This document shows, one piece after another, positions 6,188 through 44,152 of a stretch of DNA of 64,000 nucleotides (position 1 is the stretch's first letter; the number at the start of each line of letters is the position of its first letter). Source of the DNA: Bacteroidia bacterium (GTDB lineage Bacteria; Bacteroidota; Ignavibacteria; SZUA-365); the NCBI GenBank assembly GCA_027493955.1, contig JAOSJT010000001.1:1131131-1195130 (forward strand), in the 5' to 3' direction. Made by a program: the position numbers and the translations under genes. Below the pieces are notes generated by a model, which was given only the letters and a program-made list of their open reading frames with translations, ran no database searches and was not told where the DNA came from.

Positions 6188-7369
6188 GTGAAATCCATTC
6201 GTGACGCAGCCAAAGCAACACAGGCCGTTCATGCCGGCATCGAGGAAGACCGTTTCGGCGCGGTGGTTCCACCCATTTATCAGACGTCGACGTTCAAATT
6301 CGAAAATGTCCAGCACGGGGCGGATCTGTTCGCCGGCAAAGGCGACGGCTACATTTACACCCGCATGCTCAATCCCACTATACAGGCGATGGAAAACGCG
6401 ATCGCGATTCTCGAAGGCGGCTCGCACGGCCTCGGTTGCGGCAGCGGCATGGCGGCGATTCACACCGCGCTGGCAACGCTCCTGAAAGCCGGAGACCATG
6501 TGGTGTGCAGCGAGTCCGTATACGGACCGACCAGCACCCTTCTGAAGAATTACCTCACCGGCTTCGGTATCGAGAGCACCTTCGTCGATTCATCGAGCAC
6601 CGAAGCGGTTGCGGCGGCGGTGAGTCCCGCGACACGTGTCATTTTTATTGAGACACCAGCAAATCCGACACTCGTAATCAGCGACCTCAGGGCAATCGCC
6701 GCCATTGCACAGAACGCGCAGGCGAAACTGGTCGTTGACAATACCTTCATGAATCCCGTAATGCAGCGACCGCTGGAAATGGGCGCCGATGTCGTTGTGC
6801 ACAGTTTGACAAAATCCCTGAACGGGCATGCGGATGTTGTGGGTGGTATCATCGTCGTGAAGGATGAAGAGACCTATACCACCTTCCGCAAGGCGCTGAA
6901 TAATTTCGGCGGTGTGATTGATCCCTTCAACTCCTTCCTCGTGCATCGGGGGCTGAAAACACTGCATCTCCGCACTGAACGTTCCTCCGATAATGCGATG
7001 AAAATCGCACAATGGCTCGAAACACACCCCGCCATCGAATGGGTACGCTATCCCGGTTTGCCCAGTCATCCGCAACATGAACTGGCAACCCAACAGATGG
7101 ACGGATACGGATCAATGATTGCCTGTGAACTGAAGGGCGGTATGGAAGCCGGCATATCGGTCATGAACAGCGTCCAGCTCTTCGCATTGGCGGTCAGTCT
7201 CGGTGGCGTGGAATCTCTGATTCAACATCCCGCCAGCATGACGCATTTCACCATGGGCAAGGAACAACGCGAGCAGGCTCACATTACCGATGGCTTGGTC
7301 CGTATCTCCGTCGGCATAGAAGATGTCGACGAATTGATCACAGACCTGGAGCAAGCGCTCCGAGCGTAA
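6188..7369 (+). CDS. Cys/Met-metabolism PLP enzyme (methionine gamma-lyase / cystathionine gamma-lyase type)
   Basis: The product is 393 residues, the normal size for this fold-type I family. Visible signatures are VHAGIEEDRFGAVVPPIYQTST at the N-terminus (abridged family motif), YTRMLNPT, the cofactor loop GCGSGMAAIH, the aspartate in VVDNTFMNP, the Schiff-base lysine in HSLTKSLNGHAD and SVGIED near the end. Such enzymes split or make cystathionine, or break methionine or homocysteine down. The loop that carries a reactive Cys in methionine gamma-lyase reads SVYGPTST here, without that Cys, so the exact reaction is open. The GTG start was chosen because upstream sequence is not family-like. 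Confidence 0.88.
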   Translation: MKSIRDAAKATQAVHAGIEEDRFGAVVPPIYQTSTFKFENVQHGADLFAGKGDGYIYTRMLNPTIQAMENAIAILEGGSHGLGCGSGMAAIHTALATLLKAGDHVVCSESVYGPTSTLLKNYLTGFGIESTFVDSSSTEAVAAAVSPATRVIFIETPANPTLVISDLRAIAAIAQNAQAKLVVDNTFMNPVMQRPLEMGADVVVHSLTKSLNGHADVVGGIIVVKDEETYTTFRKALNNFGGVIDPFNSFLVHRGLKTLHLRTERSSDNAMKIAQWLETHPAIEWVRYPGLPSHPQHELATQQMDGYGSMIACELKGGMEAGISVMNSVQLFALAVSLGGVESLIQHPASMTHFTMGKEQREQAHITDGLVRISVGIEDVDELITDLEQALRA

Positions 7370-7409
7370 GCGCACAAGTAATCCGTCTCAGGCGGAACGA
7401 CCCAGGATC

Positions 7410-7444
7410 GACGATTTACGATTGAAGATTTTCGATTTGTCGTC
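7410..7444. repeat. Heptad repeat array A (N-ACGATT type)
   Basis: The stretch divides into consecutive 7-mers GACGATT, TACGATT, GAAGATT, TTCGATT, TGTCGTC. Four of the five units end in GATT, with no insertions. It lies just past the PLP enzyme gene. A 12-base core (CGATTTACGATT) recurs exactly in array C on the other side of the MFS gene. Confidence 0.7.
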
Positions 7445-7460
7445 GTATCCGAAGTTGTAG

Positions 7461-7495
7461 CGAAGCGCTGAGAACCCGGCGTTCTCAGATCTTCG
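7461..7495 (+). other. Strong hairpin downstream of the PLP enzyme gene
   Basis: CTGAGAAC (7468-7475) pairs with GTTCTCAG (7481-7488) around a CCGGC loop. The outer CGAAG and CTTCG extend the stem. No T-tract follows, so it is not a standard Rho-independent terminator by itself. It may be a 3' RNA-stabilising structure. Confidence 0.45.
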
Positions 7496-7520
7496 AAGGA
7501 CCGGGATGAACGGCAGAGAG

Positions 7521-7555
7521 AGGGCAGAGTGTTTGCAACTCTGCCCTTCTTCATT
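7521..7555 (+). terminator. Possible Rho-independent terminator after the PLP enzyme gene
   Basis: AGGGCAGAGT (7521-7530) and ACTCTGCCCT (7538-7547) form a 10-bp perfect stem with loop GTTTGCA, followed by TCTTCATT. The T-run is interrupted, so strength is uncertain. It lies between two convergent genes and about 150 bases past the plus-strand stop. Confidence 0.5.
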
Positions 7556-7589
7556 AGCAACACCCGCTTCCTCTTCCTCTCCCCCTTCA

Positions 7590-7659
7590 CTCTTTCCTCT
7601 TTCCTCTTTCCTCTTTCCTCTTTCCTCTTTCCTCTTTCCTCCTCACTCTTTCCTCTTTC
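7590..7659. repeat. Heptad repeat array B (CTCTTTC)
   Basis: Seven perfect head-to-tail copies of CTCTTTC cover 7590-7638. A short interruption follows, then two more perfect copies (7646-7659). The array runs into the 3' end of the MFS gene: the last two copies encode, on the minus strand, part of its basic C-terminal tail, and the stop codon falls in the interruption (7643-7645). A 7-base unit is not a multiple of three, so copy change inside the coding part would shift the frame. Confidence 0.9.
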
Positions 7660-8821
7660 TCCTCACAAACGGGAGCGCAAGCAGCACACAAAGTATCTCC
7701 GTCGCGCCGGCCAGATAGAACGCTTCGGTATATCCGGCGACATCAGCCATAAGCCCCCCGGCAAGCGGACCAAGTGCGAATCCGATCGATCCCATGGCGT
7801 TAAAGCCACCCATGGCGGAGGCCTTTCGTTCCGGTGGAGCAATGGTGGCGATCATCCAGAGACTGGGGGCGTACATCGCGGCCGCAAGAATCCCGCAGCC
7901 AACCATGAGATAGGGCATCTGCTCGGGATGCACATGCCCCGTGAACAACACCAGCACGCCGTACAGCAACGAACCGGCAAGCAGGAGTGTCAGCCCCCCG
8001 ATACGGTCGGTCAGGCGGCCAAAGACATAGGTCAGTAACGAAAACGGCAGGAGAAATCCGGCCAGCATACGTCCCGCCTCTCCCGCTCCCAATGCAAATT
8101 CCTGCGCCACATACAGCGGAAACGTGACCGCGAAAAATCCCACCGTGAATCTGTCAATAAAGGTGAACGCATAAGGAAGAAGTAAAGCACGGTGATCGTG
8201 CACCACCGTCAGCGCATCGCGCAGCGACCGCGCCTGCGCTGTCGGAGTGTCGTCGAGCAGGAAATGCGCCGTCACTGCGCAGGCCAGCAGAATCACGAAG
8301 CCCATCGTGCAAAGCAACACCATGGATTCCGCCCCGATAGCGCCGCCTACAGGAAACGCCAACGTGGTACCGAGGGAAATCGCCCCGCCCATCAATCCCA
8401 TTACCTTGCCCGAGTGTCCTTTGCGGGCGTAATCCGCTGCCAGTGTCATTACCATGGAGAAGCCCAGAATGCTCGTGGATCCCTCAAGGAAGCGCAGTGC
8501 AAGCAGCATCCCATAATCCGGTGCGAAGGGCAATGCGACGTGGAACATCCCCGTCGCCACATAGCCCGCCACAAGAAAGGGCTTCCGCCTCCCGCGCCTG
8601 TCCGACAGCGCCCCCCACACGAACGCGAACACCACGTGCGGTACGAGATACGACACCGCAAACAGCGATGAGGCCGTATCACTCAACACGAAGCGGTCCC
8701 GTACGAATGCGCCGATATTCGGAAACACCACCGCCGTGGAAAAGGTACTTGCAAAGCCCAGCGCCGCGAGCAACATGATCTGCTTCCAGGGCACGGCGTT
8801 TTCAGTTAACGGTAGACTCAC
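7643..8821 (-). CDS. Major facilitator superfamily transporter (DHA1-like)
   Basis: The product is 392 residues with about twelve hydrophobic segments. The typical MFS loop 2-3 motif appears as FVWGALSDRRGRRKP, and its half-repeat in the C-terminal half reads VFGRLTDRIGG. It is probably a drug or metabolite exporter of the inner membrane; the substrate is unknown. I chose the GTG start at VSLPLTENAVPWKQ because the 20 upstream codons are partly heptad-repeat DNA and begin with TTG. The C-terminus (RRKRKE) is encoded by tandem CTCTTTC repeats. Heptad arrays lie on both sides of the gene, which stands alone. Confidence 0.88.
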   Translation of the reverse strand: MSLPLTENAVPWKQIMLLAALGFASTFSTAVVFPNIGAFVRDRFVLSDTASSLFAVSYLVPHVVFAFVWGALSDRRGRRKPFLVAGYVATGMFHVALPFAPDYGMLLALRFLEGSTSILGFSMVMTLAADYARKGHSGKVMGLMGGAISLGTTLAFPVGGAIGAESMVLLCTMGFVILLACAVTAHFLLDDTPTAQARSLRDALTVVHDHRALLLPYAFTFIDRFTVGFFAVTFPLYVAQEFALGAGEAGRMLAGFLLPFSLLTYVFGRLTDRIGGLTLLLAGSLLYGVLVLFTGHVHPEQMPYLMVGCGILAAAMYAPSLWMIATIAPPERKASAMGGFNAMGSIGFALGPLAGGLMADVAGYTEAFYLAGATEILCVLLALPFVRRKRKE

Positions 8822-11203: not shown

Positions 11204-11277
<74 letters not shown>

Positions 11278-38632: not shown

Positions 38633-38661
38633 TCCTTCTCTGATTGCAGCGGCATTGTACC

Positions 38662-38701
38662 TGGCCGCCATCGGAATTTCTGATGGCGGCCATACTTTTT
38701 T
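38662..38701 (+). terminator. Rho-independent terminator of the peptidase gene
   Basis: TGGCCGCCATC (38662-38672) pairs perfectly with GATGGCGGCCA (38682-38692). A TACTTTTTTT tract follows. It sits about 30 bases past the DPP-IV stop. Confidence 0.93.
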
Positions 38702-39005
38702 AGGCGAACGAAAGCAAAGATCGGCCCGTCGCGGAGATCCCCCGGTTCAGCGAGCACCGATCACAGCAGAATCCGGCCGGAGCAGCAGAGACGCGCCACA
38801 CGATCTGATCGTGTGGCACAGCGTGCAGTCCACGTACAGGAAAGGGCTCACCGCATCGAAACAGAACATCCCGTAGCCGGTGGCCCAGGCGTCACGCCTC
38901 CCGGGCTTGTGATCTGCGATGGATCTGTTATATTCCGCTGACATGAAACAAACGTGACGTTCATGTGTCTATTCCCGATGCGGCCTAAGCCCGCAGCAGA
39001 TACCA
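38702..39005. other. Intergenic region before the sigma/anti-sigma locus
   Basis: About 300 bases without a convincing gene. It should hold the promoter of the ECF sigma operon. I see no clear repeat; the sequence near 38928-38945 (TTATATTCC) is AT-rich. If the sigma factor autoregulates, its own promoter motif should be here. Confidence 0.4.
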
Positions 39006-39608
39006 TTGCCGAAACAGACACGTCATACCGGCACTTCCCGCTTTGTTGATTACACGGATGCACAATTGTATTCGATGACGGCGGATGGAAAGAACGGCGA
39101 AGCCGCTTTCCGTGAGCTGTACGCACGCCTGTCGGGTCAGTTGTACGCCTACTGCAAGTGCCTGGCCTGGCGGAGAGACGAAGGAGACGACCTGTTTCAG
39201 GAAGCGTTCGCGCGCTTGTATGAGAGTGCTCTGCAGCAGCGGCAGATCAGCAATATTTCCGGGTATCTGATAAAAATCGCCAGAAATCTCTGGCTGAACA
39301 TACAGCGTGACCGCAGACCTACGGTCGGACTTGAGCTGGCCGAGAACGCCATGCAGGAACCGCCGCATGAAAAGACGGAGATGTTGGATCTGATCCGAAT
39401 GGCAATGGAATTGCTGCCCGATGATTATCGGGAGGCGTATTACATGCGGGAATTCGCCGATTTGCCCTATGAGGAAATCGCGACGGTTATGGAAACCACT
39501 CCCGGCAACATTCGGATACGTGTCACTCGCGCCCGCGAACGCATTCGGGGCATACTCGAACCCTACATCGCAGAATACGAAAACGATACGCAGCGACAGA
39601 AGCCATGA
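39006..39608 (+). CDS. ECF-type RNA polymerase sigma factor
   Basis: The product is 200 residues from a TTG start, or shorter if MTADGKNGEA (39075) is used. Region 2 is seen as FRELYARLSGQLYAYCKCLA, then GDDLFQEAFARLYESALQQ, and IARNLWLNIQRDRRP. Region 4 is LLPDDYREAYYMREFADLPY, then EEIATVMETTPGNIRIRVTR with its helix-turn-helix. It should be held inactive by the downstream protein, whose ATG overlaps the sigma stop by four bases, the usual arrangement for sigma/anti-sigma pairs. Confidence 0.92.
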   Translation: MPKQTRHTGTSRFVDYTDAQLYSMTADGKNGEAAFRELYARLSGQLYAYCKCLAWRRDEGDDLFQEAFARLYESALQQRQISNISGYLIKIARNLWLNIQRDRRPTVGLELAENAMQEPPHEKTEMLDLIRMAMELLPDDYREAYYMREFADLPYEEIATVMETTPGNIRIRVTRARERIRGILEPYIAEYENDTQRQKP

Positions 39609-40951
39609 ACACGCACAACACACTCTCAGCCGATGATCTCCTGCACGCCTGGATAGACGGCGAACTTCCAACCGAGCAGGAGCCACAGTTCTATTCGTTG
39701 CTCGCCTCCGATTCTGTGTATCGCGAGCGGCTTCGCCAGTTCCAGACCATTCGCAGGCAAGCCCTGCGATACGGCGTACAGGCGACCCCCCCGGCCGAAT
39801 TGGGGACACAGCTTTTCGAGCGACTGGGACTCCCCGCCGACGAACACAGATCATCGCGCACGCGCGTGCTTCCGTTTTTCGCGACGTTCTGGTCGCCAAT
39901 CGCCTCCGCAGCCGCCGCTGCTTTTCTCACTGCCGTGATCATTCTCGGTATACAGAAAAACAACACATCGTTCGAGAACGCTTCTCTCGCCCAACAGTCC
40001 GGAGTCGCGGCACCGACGCCGCAGACACTGGCGGCGGATCCGGCACCGAACACACATCCACCCCGTTCGTTGCCTTCGATGAAATTCGTGGATGCACGGA
40101 CGGCATCCCCGGCATCGCAGGTCCAACCATCACCTGTTCAAGGGGTCTACAACGAAGCCGTTTCGACGGACACTCCGTTGGAAGGAGAGACATCCCCGGA
40201 AAACGGCTCTGTCAGCACTGCGGAAAATCACTCCGTCGAATCCGGCAATGTGCCCACCCCCTTCCGAACCGATGCTCTCGAGACGCCTATCGCAGGCACG
40301 TCCGAAGCACCGGATGAACAAGAGAGCCTGCGACCTGAAGCGCATCCTTCTGAAGGTTTCACCGCAGTGAACGATTTGCCTGTCGCGAGCGGGCAACGGG
40401 ACGAGCTCAGCGGCTATCGCGACGGTCCGGCGCCCTTTCCCCAACAAATGGCGCTTTCCGCCGCGGATATCCTCACTATCGAAATCCGGGGAACGACGGC
40501 CTCCTCCTTCCCAAGAGCCACCATCCCCTCCAATCCTGCTCCCTGGATGGAAAACATGGCCATCGGTGTGTTCTATCCTGACGAGCATACCGATCTTGGT
40601 TTGGAATACGGACAGGAAGCGTTTTCTCAGCATTACAGCGGCATGGAAAACGGGAAATACGTCCGCTATGAGCAAAATCTTCGCTCCTCCTGGCTCATCG
40701 CAACCGTCAGACAGCGCATGGGGCGCATCGAGTCGCTCGCAGGGTTTGAACCCTATGCCTCGATCAGTGCGGGAGCAACGTTCGAACTCTGGCCCCTGCT
40801 GAAAGGCGGGTTCGGATTGATGTACATGCCCGATAATCGCGTCCGCTTCCATATTGGTCTCGAGGGTGCGCTGCTCGCCTTCCCGTATCAGGAGCAATGG
40901 TTCACATCGAAGCGCGCGGGCATCACCTACGGCCTTTCCGTCTTGTTCTGA
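39605..40951 (+). CDS. Anti-sigma protein with an outer-membrane-like C-terminal domain
   Basis: The product is 448 residues. Residues 8-55 (SADDLLHAWIDGELPTEQEP) resemble the N-terminal helices of anti-sigma factors, without the HxxxCxxC zinc motif. One transmembrane span follows at about 94-116. A Pro/Thr/Ser/Glu-rich linker covers about 120-290. The last about 155 residues are beta-strand-rich, with WLIATVRQRMGRIESLAG, YASISAGATFELWPLL and KGGFGLMYM, ending in GITYGLSVLF with terminal Phe, as in barrel strands. A fusion of this kind could place sensing at the outer membrane. Whether the end truly inserts in that membrane is inference. Confidence 0.78.
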   Translation: MNTHNTLSADDLLHAWIDGELPTEQEPQFYSLLASDSVYRERLRQFQTIRRQALRYGVQATPPAELGTQLFERLGLPADEHRSSRTRVLPFFATFWSPIASAAAAAFLTAVIILGIQKNNTSFENASLAQQSGVAAPTPQTLAADPAPNTHPPRSLPSMKFVDARTASPASQVQPSPVQGVYNEAVSTDTPLEGETSPENGSVSTAENHSVESGNVPTPFRTDALETPIAGTSEAPDEQESLRPEAHPSEGFTAVNDLPVASGQRDELSGYRDGPAPFPQQMALSAADILTIEIRGTTASSFPRATIPSNPAPWMENMAIGVFYPDEHTDLGLEYGQEAFSQHYSGMENGKYVRYEQNLRSSWLIATVRQRMGRIESLAGFEPYASISAGATFELWPLLKGGFGLMYMPDNRVRFHIGLEGALLAFPYQEQWFTSKRAGITYGLSVLF

Positions 40952-40973
40952 AACGCCTCTGTACAAACATGCA

Positions 40974-42284
40974 ATGATGACAATGCACGACAATATTGCA
41001 GACAGGAAACAATCGCGCGCACCATCGCCGCTGAACGGCCGGACGACGACGCAGGTCCCGAATCCTTTCCGACCAGTGCATGGGGTCGCGCCAGCCATCG
41101 TGCTCTGTGCCATTGCCGCACTGCTCGTCGGCTGCGCCTCTCCAACCGATCCGGATACGCCGCGGCGGCGCATAGCGGAACCATCGAAATATTTCCTCAA
41201 CACGCTGCATATCAGTGAGTATGACGAGGGTTTCGACGTGTCGGAGCTACCCGACGGGGGATTCATATTCGCGGGACGCACCTGGATGGCGCATACCGCG
41301 TCAATTGACGTCCTGCTTGTCCGTACCGATGCCGAAGGCATCGTTCTCTGGAAAAAAACCTTTGGTGGCGTGTACGAGGATCAGGCCTATTCCGTCGAGC
41401 ATACCTCCGACGGCGGCTTCATCATCGTCGGTACCACCGAGTCCTATACCAATGGCTTCACCGACATCTGGTTGATAAAAACCGACGCGCAGGGAACCAT
41501 GCTCTGGAACCGCTCCTACGGCGGGACGAGTTACGATTACGGCCTGGATGTCCGCGAGTGCTTCAACGGCGGTTACATTGTCGCCGGACAATCTCAGCAG
41601 TCCCTTACCGGCGGCAAATATGCGATGTTGCTGCGTACGGATGAACTAGGCAATGAGATCTGGAATAAGCTCTACGGCGGCAGGGATGGCGACATCGCCG
41701 CGTCGGTGGATCAACTTGCGGACGGCGGCTTTGTGGTGGCCGGCGCAACGACATCCGCAACAACCGGCAGCAGCGCGCTGTGGGTATTCCGAACATCCCC
41801 GAGTGGTGAAATCCTCTGGGACCGGAGCATCAGTGGCGCCCAGAGCAACATCGGTACGCGTCTGCATACGCTTGCTGACGGCAGCGTGGCGGTCATCGGG
41901 TATTCCATGCCACCAAATTCCCAGAACTCCAATATGCTGTTCGTCCGTCTCGACCCGGCGGGTGATGTCACCGTGAATACCATTCTGCACGACAATGCTT
42001 TTGGTACCGGTATAGACGAAGCGGCGGATGGCAACTTTGTCGTATGCGGATATACCAATCCCTACAGCGGCGACGCCTCCGATATCGTGCTCTCCAAGGT
42101 GAGCCGTGACGGGAACGTCCTCTGGACGCGTCTCATTGGCGGCAACAGGCGCGATCGTGCCGCAGCGGTTGTCATCACCAGCGACAACGGTTATCTGCTC
42201 ACGGGCAGTACGCGATCGTACGGTCATGGCGACCTGGATCTTCTGATGCTCAAAACCAACGACATCGGCTTGTACGAGGAATAA
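40974..42284 (+). CDS. Lipoprotein with repeated beta-propeller-like motifs
   Basis: The product is 436 residues. The lipobox is LVGC (ALLVGCASP) after a hydrophobic core. Repeats of about 50 residues follow, each with the pattern DGGFI-(V/F)AG-T and a closing D-G-x-x-LW element: examples are ELPDGGFIFAGRTW, TSDGGFIIVGTTE, LADGGFVVAGATTS, and DGNFVVCGYTNP. This looks like a propeller. The start is 22 bases after the anti-sigma gene, suggesting a single operon, so it could be a periplasmic partner or ligand-binding part. Family not named with certainty. Confidence 0.83.
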   Translation: MMTMHDNIADRKQSRAPSPLNGRTTTQVPNPFRPVHGVAPAIVLCAIAALLVGCASPTDPDTPRRRIAEPSKYFLNTLHISEYDEGFDVSELPDGGFIFAGRTWMAHTASIDVLLVRTDAEGIVLWKKTFGGVYEDQAYSVEHTSDGGFIIVGTTESYTNGFTDIWLIKTDAQGTMLWNRSYGGTSYDYGLDVRECFNGGYIVAGQSQQSLTGGKYAMLLRTDELGNEIWNKLYGGRDGDIAASVDQLADGGFVVAGATTSATTGSSALWVFRTSPSGEILWDRSISGAQSNIGTRLHTLADGSVAVIGYSMPPNSQNSNMLFVRLDPAGDVTVNTILHDNAFGTGIDEAADGNFVVCGYTNPYSGDASDIVLSKVSRDGNVLWTRLIGGNRRDRAAAVVITSDNGYLLTGSTRSYGHGDLDLLMLKTNDIGLYEE

Positions 42285-42323: not shown

Positions 42324-43109
42324 ATGAAAACTGCCACGCAAACAGACGGCGCACTTTCCGTTATCATCATTGCCGGCGATGAGGAAAAAAACATCGCTGC
42401 CTGCCTCGAATCCGTATCCTGGGCCCATGAACGCATTGTCGTCTGCTCCTCCCGCGCGGACAGAACTGAAGAAATCGCTCGTTTCTACGCGACCCGAGTG
42501 GAATTCCGGGAGTTTCAGGGGTATGCACCGCAAAAACAGTATGCGTTAGACCTCGCAACCTGTGAATGGGTCTTGAGTCTCGATGCCGACGAACGGGCTA
42601 CATCCGAGCTTCGTGACGAGATTCTCCGTGTCACCACGGATACCGGTGCCTGTGACGGGTACACCATACCGCGGAAAAACTATTTCAACGATATTTGGCT
42701 CCGGCATGGGGGATGGTATCCCGACCGCCAACTCCGCCTGTTTCGCAAATCGGCCACCGTCGTTACAAACCGACTGGTGCATGAGGGCTTCGATGTGCGG
42801 GGCCGTCGCGGAGAACTCCAATCGCCCATGCTCCACTACACCCTTCCGCGTGTCAGGCGGCTCCTGCGAAAAAACCTGGATTACGCTTTGTATGAAGCCC
42901 GGGAAAAGGCCACGCGACGGCGTATCGGTGTTCTGGATTTTCTGCTGCGTCCGCCCATAGAATTTCTGAAAAAATACGTCTTCCAGCGTGGCTTTCTCGA
43001 TGGTTGGGAAGGATATATCGTGGCGCTCATTCATGCCTCGAACAAACTCAACGTCCTGATCTATCTCTGGGAAATGCAGCGGCGCGGCGGTGACGGGAGA
43101 GAGGAGTAA
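42324..43109 (+). CDS. Glycosyltransferase family 2, WaaE/KdtX-like
   Basis: The product is 261 residues. The GT-A start is SVIIIAGDEEKNIAACLESV, then WVLSLDADERATSEL with the metal-binding DAD. The pattern with YFNDIWLRHGGWYPDRQLRL and FRKSATV-like residues is that of the WaaE/KdtX group, which adds a hexose to the LPS core. It ends in a basic, membrane-associated helical tail. It overlaps the following heptosyltransferase gene by one base, so the pair likely works on LPS core sugars. Confidence 0.9.
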   Translation: MKTATQTDGALSVIIIAGDEEKNIAACLESVSWAHERIVVCSSRADRTEEIARFYATRVEFREFQGYAPQKQYALDLATCEWVLSLDADERATSELRDEILRVTTDTGACDGYTIPRKNYFNDIWLRHGGWYPDRQLRLFRKSATVVTNRLVHEGFDVRGRRGELQSPMLHYTLPRVRRLLRKNLDYALYEAREKATRRRIGVLDFLLRPPIEFLKKYVFQRGFLDGWEGYIVALIHASNKLNVLIYLWEMQRRGGDGREE

Positions 43110-44152
43110 TGCCTCGGCGACGTCGTATCCTCGTCGTACGTCCCGACCGCATAGGCGATGTCGCACTGGCAACGCCGACGATCAGGGCGTTGCGCCATCA
43201 CTTTCCCGATGCATTCCTGGCGGTACTTGTCCGTCCGTCTACGGAACCTGTGCTGCGGCACAATCCACATCTCGACGCGATTCTGCTCGACGATTATGAA
43301 AACGAGCATGCCGGCAAAAGAGGATTTTTCGACCGGCTGCGCATGCTGCGAAAACATGATTTCGATACAGCCCTGATGCTGCTCCCATCGGAACGCCATG
43401 CATGGATGACCTTTCTCGCCGGTATACGGACGCGCATCGGGGTTGGAAACAAGCTGTATCAGTACCTTACCTTCACACGCCGCGTCAGCAGGAATAAGTA
43501 TATTCCGCTGCGTCATGAAGCAGATTATTGTCTCGATCTCGCCCGTCGTCTGGGTGTTCGTACGGACGATCTTTCCCTGGAGCTGTATCTGACACAGGAG
43601 GAAAAGGACATTGCCGTCGCGGAACTGAAGGCGACGGGCTGGCGGGAGTCGCACCGACTTGTCGCGCTCCATCCCGAAAGCGGAGGTTCGGCGCCGAACT
43701 GGAAGCCGGAGAACTACGCCGCGCTCGCGGAGCGCGTGCTTCGCGAGACCGACGATACGCAAATCCTCGTGCTGCTTTCGAAGAACGGGAGCGTCCTGCA
43801 ACCCTTGTTTGACGTCCCCGGAAAGGAGCGCGTGCTCATTCCCGCGCCCCGCAATGACCTGCGCTTCGCCATGGCCTGCATCGATGCATCGTCAGTGACC
43901 GTGAGCGCAAGTACGGGGCCCATGCATCTCGCGGCGGGTCTTGGAATTCCGACCGTGAATCTGTTCTGTCCCCTTACAGCCTGCTCGCCGGCACTCTGGG
44001 GGCCCAAAGGGAACCGCGCCGAAATTCTACTCCCCGTTGACGGTTATTGCTCGCAACAGTGTCCGGGCGATCCCAAGCTCTGTACGTTCGAGGGCGGCAT
44101 ATCCGTGGAAGACGCCACCGCCGCCGTAGTCAGACAGTTGGCGACGGTATAG
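43109..44152 (+). CDS. Glycosyltransferase family 9 (heptosyltransferase-like)
   Basis: The product is 347 residues. It has the GT9 start ILVVRPDRIGDVALATPTIR and the C-terminal nucleotide-sugar region ALHPESGGSAPNWKPENYAA, then VTVSASTGPMHLAAGLGIPT. This is the pattern of WaaC/WaaF-type heptosyltransferases acting on LPS inner core in the cytoplasm face of the inner membrane. Residues CSQQCPGDPKLC near the end may bind metal or be structural; many family members have a related cysteine-rich end. It is co-transcribed with the preceding glycosyltransferase. Confidence 0.91.
   Translation: MPRRRRILVVRPDRIGDVALATPTIRALRHHFPDAFLAVLVRPSTEPVLRHNPHLDAILLDDYENEHAGKRGFFDRLRMLRKHDFDTALMLLPSERHAWMTFLAGIRTRIGVGNKLYQYLTFTRRVSRNKYIPLRHEADYCLDLARRLGVRTDDLSLELYLTQEEKDIAVAELKATGWRESHRLVALHPESGGSAPNWKPENYAALAERVLRETDDTQILVLLSKNGSVLQPLFDVPGKERVLIPAPRNDLRFAMACIDASSVTVSASTGPMHLAAGLGIPTVNLFCPLTACSPALWGPKGNRAEILLPVDGYCSQQCPGDPKLCTFEGGISVEDATAAVVRQLATV

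Follow-up and report, generated by a model that had tools for sequence, protein, structure and literature searches.

Anti-sigma factors that bridge the cell envelope are known from gut Bacteroides and Phocaeicola, as the Dma and Reo proteins. Dma of Bacteroides thetaiotaomicron, encoded beside ECF21 (extracytoplasmic function) sigma factors, has the same domain order as the protein described below (PMC13088901; Pardue et al. 2024 as cited there). The Dma family as published is restricted to Bacteroidota, and deletion raises sigma activity and vesiculation; das2 and the genes downstream of it are up-regulated when dma2 is deleted (PMC13088901). The Reo anti-sigma factors of Phocaeicola and Bacteroides fragilis share this domain order, including a predicted barrel, and have been proposed to sense outer-membrane stress (PMC9308784, PMC13114119); Reo is said to span all five bacterial compartments (PMC13114119). 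Loss of the anti-sigma factor in Phocaeicola leads to a longer O-antigen, and the regulon includes a glycosyltransferase gene of the lipopolysaccharide (LPS) region (PMC9308784). Complexes of RcsF with outer-membrane proteins are a precedent for a sensor made of a lipoprotein and a barrel (PMC4942254). Here we compare with these systems a sigma factor operon around positions 39006-42284 of a 64,000-nucleotide stretch, called the window below, from Bacteroidia bacterium assembly GCA_027493955.1.

The anti-sigma protein is of Dma type and comes from an uncultured Bacteroidetes/Ignavibacteria lineage, outside Bacteroidales. Its membrane-bridging architecture is a known one; what looks new is the lipoprotein that stands beside nearly every Dma gene and shares a short N-terminal box, SPxDxDTPR, together with a glycan operon under a conserved promoter. 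A box almost confined to Dma-adjacent lipoproteins is a concrete candidate for the input of the membrane-spanning Dma and Reo factors. We interpret the locus as a Dma-type envelope-signalling operon, and put the probability of this explanation at about 0.7. The parts of the operon are as follows.

38944-38970, plus strand: putative ECF promoter, TGAAACAAA-N12-GTGTCT, ending 35 nucleotides 5' of the sigma gene start; motif conserved in orthologous loci
39006-39608, plus strand: ECF sigma gene with a TTG start, at the same position in the aligned orthologues; Pfam matches above cut-off, at 35.4 bits for Sigma70_r2 and 55.7 bits for Sigma70_r4_2
39605-40951, plus strand: gene of the predicted Dma-type anti-sigma protein, 448 amino acids, from domain order, homologues and AlphaFold
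39629-39826, plus strand: helical domain at the N-terminus (residues 9-74), putatively sigma-binding, from AlphaFold helices and weak anti-sigma profile matches
39896-39952, plus strand: transmembrane helix (residues 98-116), from hydropathy and a predicted helix at 84-128
39953-40474, plus strand: predicted disordered periplasmic linker (residues 117-290), of low model confidence, Pro/Ser/Thr/Glu/Ala low-complexity composition and hypervariable length
40475-40948, plus strand: predicted beta-barrel domain of outer-membrane type (residues 291-448), from eight predicted strands, fold matches and strand alternation
40925-40948, plus strand: C-terminal beta-signal TYGLSVLF, from the pattern PoxGxxHyxHy
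40974-42284, plus strand: lipoprotein with delta-60/SBBP-type propeller repeats, from NCBIfam, syntenic in the family; start at ATG 40974 or shortly after
41133-41165, plus strand: lipobox Cys (codon 41133-41135) and SPxDxDTPR box, CASPTDPDTPR; box profile E 3.9e-10
42324-43109, plus strand: glycosyltransferase family 2 (GT2), Pfam PF00535, E 5e-10; same place in orthologous loci
43109-44152, plus strand: glycosyltransferase family 9 (GT9, the heptosyltransferase family), Pfam PF01075, E 2.6e-15; TIGR02195 at 89 bits, below cut-off; syntenic

The Dma-adjacent lipoproteins and their box

Four Dma-type genes, each beside an ECF sigma gene, occur in the window genome, a single contig of 5.24 Mb, and Dma-type matches occur in 10 of the 11 other genomes of the family. 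For 59 or more of the 67 non-redundant Dma loci, the next gene encodes a lipoprotein as called by a strict rule, with gaps ranging from -50 to +124 nucleotides; of the eight misses, two or more reflect failed detection, as L106 and L121 do have a box beside the Dma gene according to the box profile described below. When the box is excluded, the 59 lipoprotein bodies form about 20 sequence clusters, including propeller (as in the window), von Willebrand A and serpin types. The window lipoprotein, which the initial annotation had taken for propeller-like, indeed matches two NCBIfam models, though below their curated cut-offs: delta_60_rpt (E 3.5e-15) and SBBP propeller lipoprotein (E 5.5e-6).

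Most of the adjacent lipoproteins have in common a box directly after the lipidated cysteine, with the consensus C-x-S-P-[LT]-D-x-D-T-P-R. The conserved positions after Cys are +3 Ser, +4 Pro (43 of 59 proteins), +6 Asp or Glu (41/59), +8 Asp, +9 Thr, +10 Pro and +11 Arg (39/59). Codons at these positions vary synonymously, and thus the constraint acts on the peptide; a DNA- or RNA-level cause is ruled out by the freedom of this variation. One regular expression for the box detects 36 of 51 Dma-adjacent lipoproteins vs. none of 35 others, one of which (L051) does follow a Dma gene, though a truncated one.

A profile of 23 positions, covering the cysteine and the box, gives 19 matches with E of 4e-7 or less in the 12 whole genomes of the family, all directly behind Dma genes, and one more at 0.006, so that 20 of 21 box matches in the family are Dma-adjacent. 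The remaining match in range (G204:C78, E 1e-4) is an 88-codon frame in coding DNA, in a locus with no Dma gene, and was rejected as a chance hit. Across the phylum, 198 genomes yielded 16 matches with E < 1e-3, distributed over 13 genomes, and all 16 lie immediately behind Dma genes that had been located independently. Since the profile was built from Dma-adjacent lipoproteins, their recovery is to be expected; what is informative is the near-absence of any other match in these genomes.

Partners of the other three Dma genes of the window genome vary. Behind the second Dma gene (6858-8246, minus strand, of L068, i.e., G000:C1:2484000-2499000) comes a serpin lipoprotein (PF00079, E 6e-104) whose box, CSEQATQPDEPTPIR, is divergent, and the same pair is seen in L084. 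The third has a von Willebrand A lipoprotein (CDSPLGIDTPR) behind it and, next in line, a second secreted, von Willebrand A-like protein (L066:7847-9934, plus strand). After the fourth comes a 223-residue lipoprotein, CAPPDDKDPSNIIGTDPCVDP, with no Pfam match (L067:5541-6209, minus strand); a related body occupies the matching place in L083.

Because the box is always encoded beside Dma, contact with the Dma barrel, or with the tether beneath it, would be its most economical role, and we put docking of the lipoprotein on the barrel at even odds. A further proposal, which we advance tentatively, is that these systems are modular three-part sensors: each Dma barrel would take the SPxDxDTPR peptide of its own lipoprotein, while the body (propeller, von Willebrand A, serpin and others) would be an exchangeable module for sensing and would determine the stimulus detected by the same sigma/anti-sigma chassis. 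A doubtful, if serious, competitor is that the lipoprotein is a mere regulon output, and the box a sorting or surface-export signal comparable to the acidic signal of Bacteroides and Capnocytophaga lipoproteins. The box sits exactly where such signals are and has two acidic residues, and the outputs of EcfO and Das1 include NigD surface lipoproteins (PMC13114119, PMC13088901). A general signal, however, would be expected on many lipoproteins, whereas the profile finds essentially Dma neighbours only, and other lipoproteins encoded in the same DNA do without the box; it may instead be an export signal special to this class.

Architecture of the anti-sigma protein

The models and profiles make it very probable that the 448-residue protein is of Dma-type architecture. 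AlphaFold predicts N-terminal helices at residues 9-17, 26-34, 37-55 and 64-74, followed by a long helix, 84-128. The N-terminus matches the NCBIfam anti-sigma model NF052375 at E 7e-6, below cut-off, and the N-termini of homologues give weak RseA_N or zf-HC2 matches, also below cut-off. There is no N-terminal signal peptide; a single hydrophobic helix (residues 98-116, Kyte-Doolittle mean 2.19) occurs at the same position in 18 homologues. These 18 can be aligned over the full length, and each has an ECF sigma gene directly upstream, which, together with synteny in the family, makes the arrangement of the locus more than chance.

The linker, of about 174 residues, is acidic, consists to 41% of Pro, Ser, Thr and Glu, and has no Trp or Cys; the AlphaFold predicted local distance difference test (pLDDT) score is below 50 throughout residues 115-288. 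Among homologues its length ranges from 100 to 255 residues. Such fast evolution of sequence and length could mean that the linker is a processing region and no physical tether, with the barrel and the anti-sigma part acting as two proteins after an early cleavage; partner proteins are known to be processed in cell-surface signalling, where the signalling domain of FoxA is cleaved (PMC11637429). We consider this improbable, as the single-gene fusion is retained in all homologues found, the linkers never fall below about 100 residues, and no split version is seen among the full-length matches. The stretch that precedes the barrel in the orthologues (VDTRQYFP; residues ~272-280 of the window protein) resembles the lipoprotein segment DTPRRRITEPSRYF, a likeness that could be due to chance or to a common binding site.

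The AlphaFold2 model of the C-terminal domain (residues 276-448, plus seven related sequences) has eight strands and a mean pLDDT of 71. In a Foldseek search against solved structures it matches mostly outer-membrane barrels. The Z scores in VIA-align are 14.4 for PagL, 14.4 for NspA, 13.7 for OprF and 13.3 for the OmpA barrel, and the top row (15.4) is a barrel modelled within the Legionella Dot/Icm machine. Alternation of inside and outside hydrophobicity along the strands exceeds that of shuffled strands (p = 0.0002). The last eight residues fit the beta-signal PoxGxxHyxHy in 18 of 18 homologues, 15 of which end in an aromatic residue, and the window protein ends in Phe. Pfam searches with the window protein and the 18 homologues found no barrel family for this domain. 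That the domain is rather a soluble periplasmic beta-barrel or lipocalin-like sensor, and the protein an ordinary one-membrane anti-sigma factor, is most improbable: fold searches do return PsbO and avidin-type barrels too (Z 9-10), and there is no signal peptide, but outer-membrane barrels match best (Z 13-15), the strand alternation and the conserved beta-signal argue for the membrane, a long disordered tether would be needless, and an outer-membrane barrel is predicted for those Bacteroidales proteins that share the domain order (PMC9308784, PMC13088901).

A single polypeptide spanning the envelope from cytoplasm to outer membrane, its barrel presumably inserted in the latter, is the best reading of these predictions, and a well supported one. 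The initial annotation had proposed the same, starting from an overlap of the sigma and anti-sigma genes (which amounts to 4 nucleotides), a single membrane span, a disordered linker of some 170 residues rich in Pro, Ser, Thr and Glu, and a beta-rich end with a terminal aromatic residue. The first three descriptions hold, and the last was an understatement, as the entire octapeptide fits the beta-signal. The best structural matches are outer-membrane barrels and the linker is long enough (about 61 nm for 174 residues fully extended), so neither a soluble globular C-terminal fold nor a linker too short to cross the periplasm was found; the same fusion recurs in the related genomes. The proposal was thus right but not novel, since Dma and Reo have been published with the same domain order. 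The promoter, the conserved box of the lipoprotein and the genes for the two glycosyltransferases are additional to that annotation.

Promoter, operon and distribution

The gene order sigma-Dma-propeller lipoprotein-GT2-GT9 is kept in those genomes of the family where the contig is long enough. Upstream of the sigma gene, each of the eight orthologous loci has the sequence TGAAACAAA-N12-GTGTCT, with two mismatches at most; the gap between TGAAAC and GTGTCT is always 15 nucleotides. The window genome has one exact match, at this operon; in the 12 family genomes there are seven exact matches (first A or C allowed), all at this operon, and none to the reversed pattern. Such a pattern would be expected of an ECF operon that regulates itself and whose regulon is narrow. 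Synteny and the near-unique promoter together imply an autoregulated envelope-glycan operon, and we regard the autoregulation as likely. The two glycosyltransferases may act on LPS, as suggested by their enzyme families and by the longer O-antigen of the Phocaeicola mutant (PMC9308784).

One-mismatch copies of the promoter in the window genome (G000:C1:684303-684329 and 2982237-2982263, both minus strand) precede a gene for a 460-residue outer-membrane-protein-like product and one for a secreted protein. We make no claim of a wider regulon from the motif, since two such sites, vs. about one expected by chance and one for the reversed control, are close to chance expectation.

The best NCBIfam subfamily match of the window sigma factor is GFO_1088/PG0214 (87 bits, below the cut-off of 130), in a comparison that included no ECF21 model. 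Other genes scanned around the operon encode GNAT, DPP-IV, Lon-like and RND proteins. Relatives (L071:7151-7930, L069 and L074) have an Amidase_3 gene (PF01520) between the sigma gene and the DPP-IV-like gene; the corresponding gap in the window, 38633-38943, is shorter and contains no readable Amidase_3 gene. The sole Rfam match in the window is a tRNA gene (11204-11277, plus strand).

A profile search of 395 genomes of the phylum found long barrel-bearing proteins (at least about 360 residues) in many families of the same class; among the matches listed, those from other classes cover the N-terminal domain only and are short frames. Plasmids were searched with no match. A search of contigs with the single window protein likewise had no match, and a mixed alignment was too diverse; the alignment of orthologues retrieved six named loci. 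The titles of named records from the family read 'Bacteroidetes bacterium' or 'uncultured Ignavibacteria bacterium', and NCBI places Ignavibacteria in Ignavibacteriota.

Proposed mechanism and comparison with known systems

We propose that the N-terminal domain of the anti-sigma protein keeps the ECF sigma factor at the inner membrane, which the protein would cross once, with the disordered tether bridging the periplasm and the C-terminus folding into a small outer-membrane barrel. A dedicated outer-membrane lipoprotein would engage this barrel, or the tether beneath it, by its N-terminal box and present a variable domain, in this case the propeller; lipoprotein and barrel would form the outer-membrane end of the sensor, and the lipoprotein, rather than the barrel alone, may be the sensing part. 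When this complex is disturbed or unassembled, the sigma factor would be released, possibly by proteolysis or possibly through failure of barrel assembly, and would transcribe its own operon from TGAAACAAA-N12-GTGTCT, producing the anti-sigma protein, the lipoprotein and two envelope glycosyltransferases. The output would be repair with negative feedback. The membrane-bridging protein is, apparently, a reporter of surface damage to a gene switch; the computations show the order of domains, the barrel-type fold, the adjacency of the sigma gene, the synteny, the conservation of the promoter and the specificity of the box for Dma neighbours, from which we infer the insertion in the outer membrane, the box-barrel contact, the signal, the release step and the LPS-type output.

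Several observations count against this scheme. The full-length AlphaFold model has a mean pLDDT of 54, and it and the barrel model are built on 7 sequences. Soluble PsbO barrels reach Z of about 10, and therefore the fold by itself is no proof of membrane insertion. A few Dma genes have no neighbouring lipoprotein, and some pairs, such as the serpin type (CSEQATQPDEPTPIR) and the CADPSGITDP type, have a degenerate box or none. A lone lipoprotein, L163 (G203:C1:438301; start CDSPTEPDNR, E 0.009), has no Dma gene within 1.5 kb and is the sole plausible exception to the box rule. Finally, there is just one exact promoter site per genome, and any regulon beyond the operon would be hypothetical.

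Among known systems, FecI-FecR-FecA and FoxI-FoxR-FoxA likewise join an outer-membrane barrel, an anti-sigma factor and an ECF sigma factor in one signalling chain (PMC11637429). Their barrel, however, belongs to a protein of its own, a TonB-dependent receptor that bears a signalling domain, while here barrel and anti-sigma part form one polypeptide and the barrel has eight predicted strands. The FecR Pfam domain is missing from the window protein and its 18 homologues, and a TonB receptor gene from the flanking genes scanned, on which grounds a FecR/TonB system was rejected.

RcsF of E. coli offers an analogy only: an outer-membrane lipoprotein whose N-terminal segment is associated with a beta-barrel and which reports the state of LPS (PMC4942254). 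It differs in that its periplasmic domain passes the signal to a phosphorelay, with no sigma factor involved and no sequence relationship to the proteins described here. In EcfO-Reo of Bacteroides fragilis and Phocaeicola vulgatus, the anti-sigma factor is predicted to extend from cytoplasm to surface with an outer-membrane barrel (PMC9308784, PMC13114119), and genes for surface lipoproteins and for an LPS glycosyltransferase are under its control; no adjacent box lipoprotein has been reported there, and the NigD lipoproteins are members of the regulon.

The likeness to Dma lies in a putative anti-sigma domain at the N-terminus, one transmembrane helix, a long disordered tether, a predicted C-terminal beta-barrel, an adjacent ECF sigma factor and, probably, the own operon as a main target. 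This likeness is one of domain order. In the lineage studied here, which lies outside Bacteroidales, a lipoprotein with the SPxDxDTPR box follows nearly every copy, and GT2 and GT9 are part of the operon, neither of which is mentioned in the Dma2 paper (PMC13088901). The Dma architecture is in this way extended beyond Bacteroidales and tied, by a conserved operon and promoter, to envelope glycosyltransferases.

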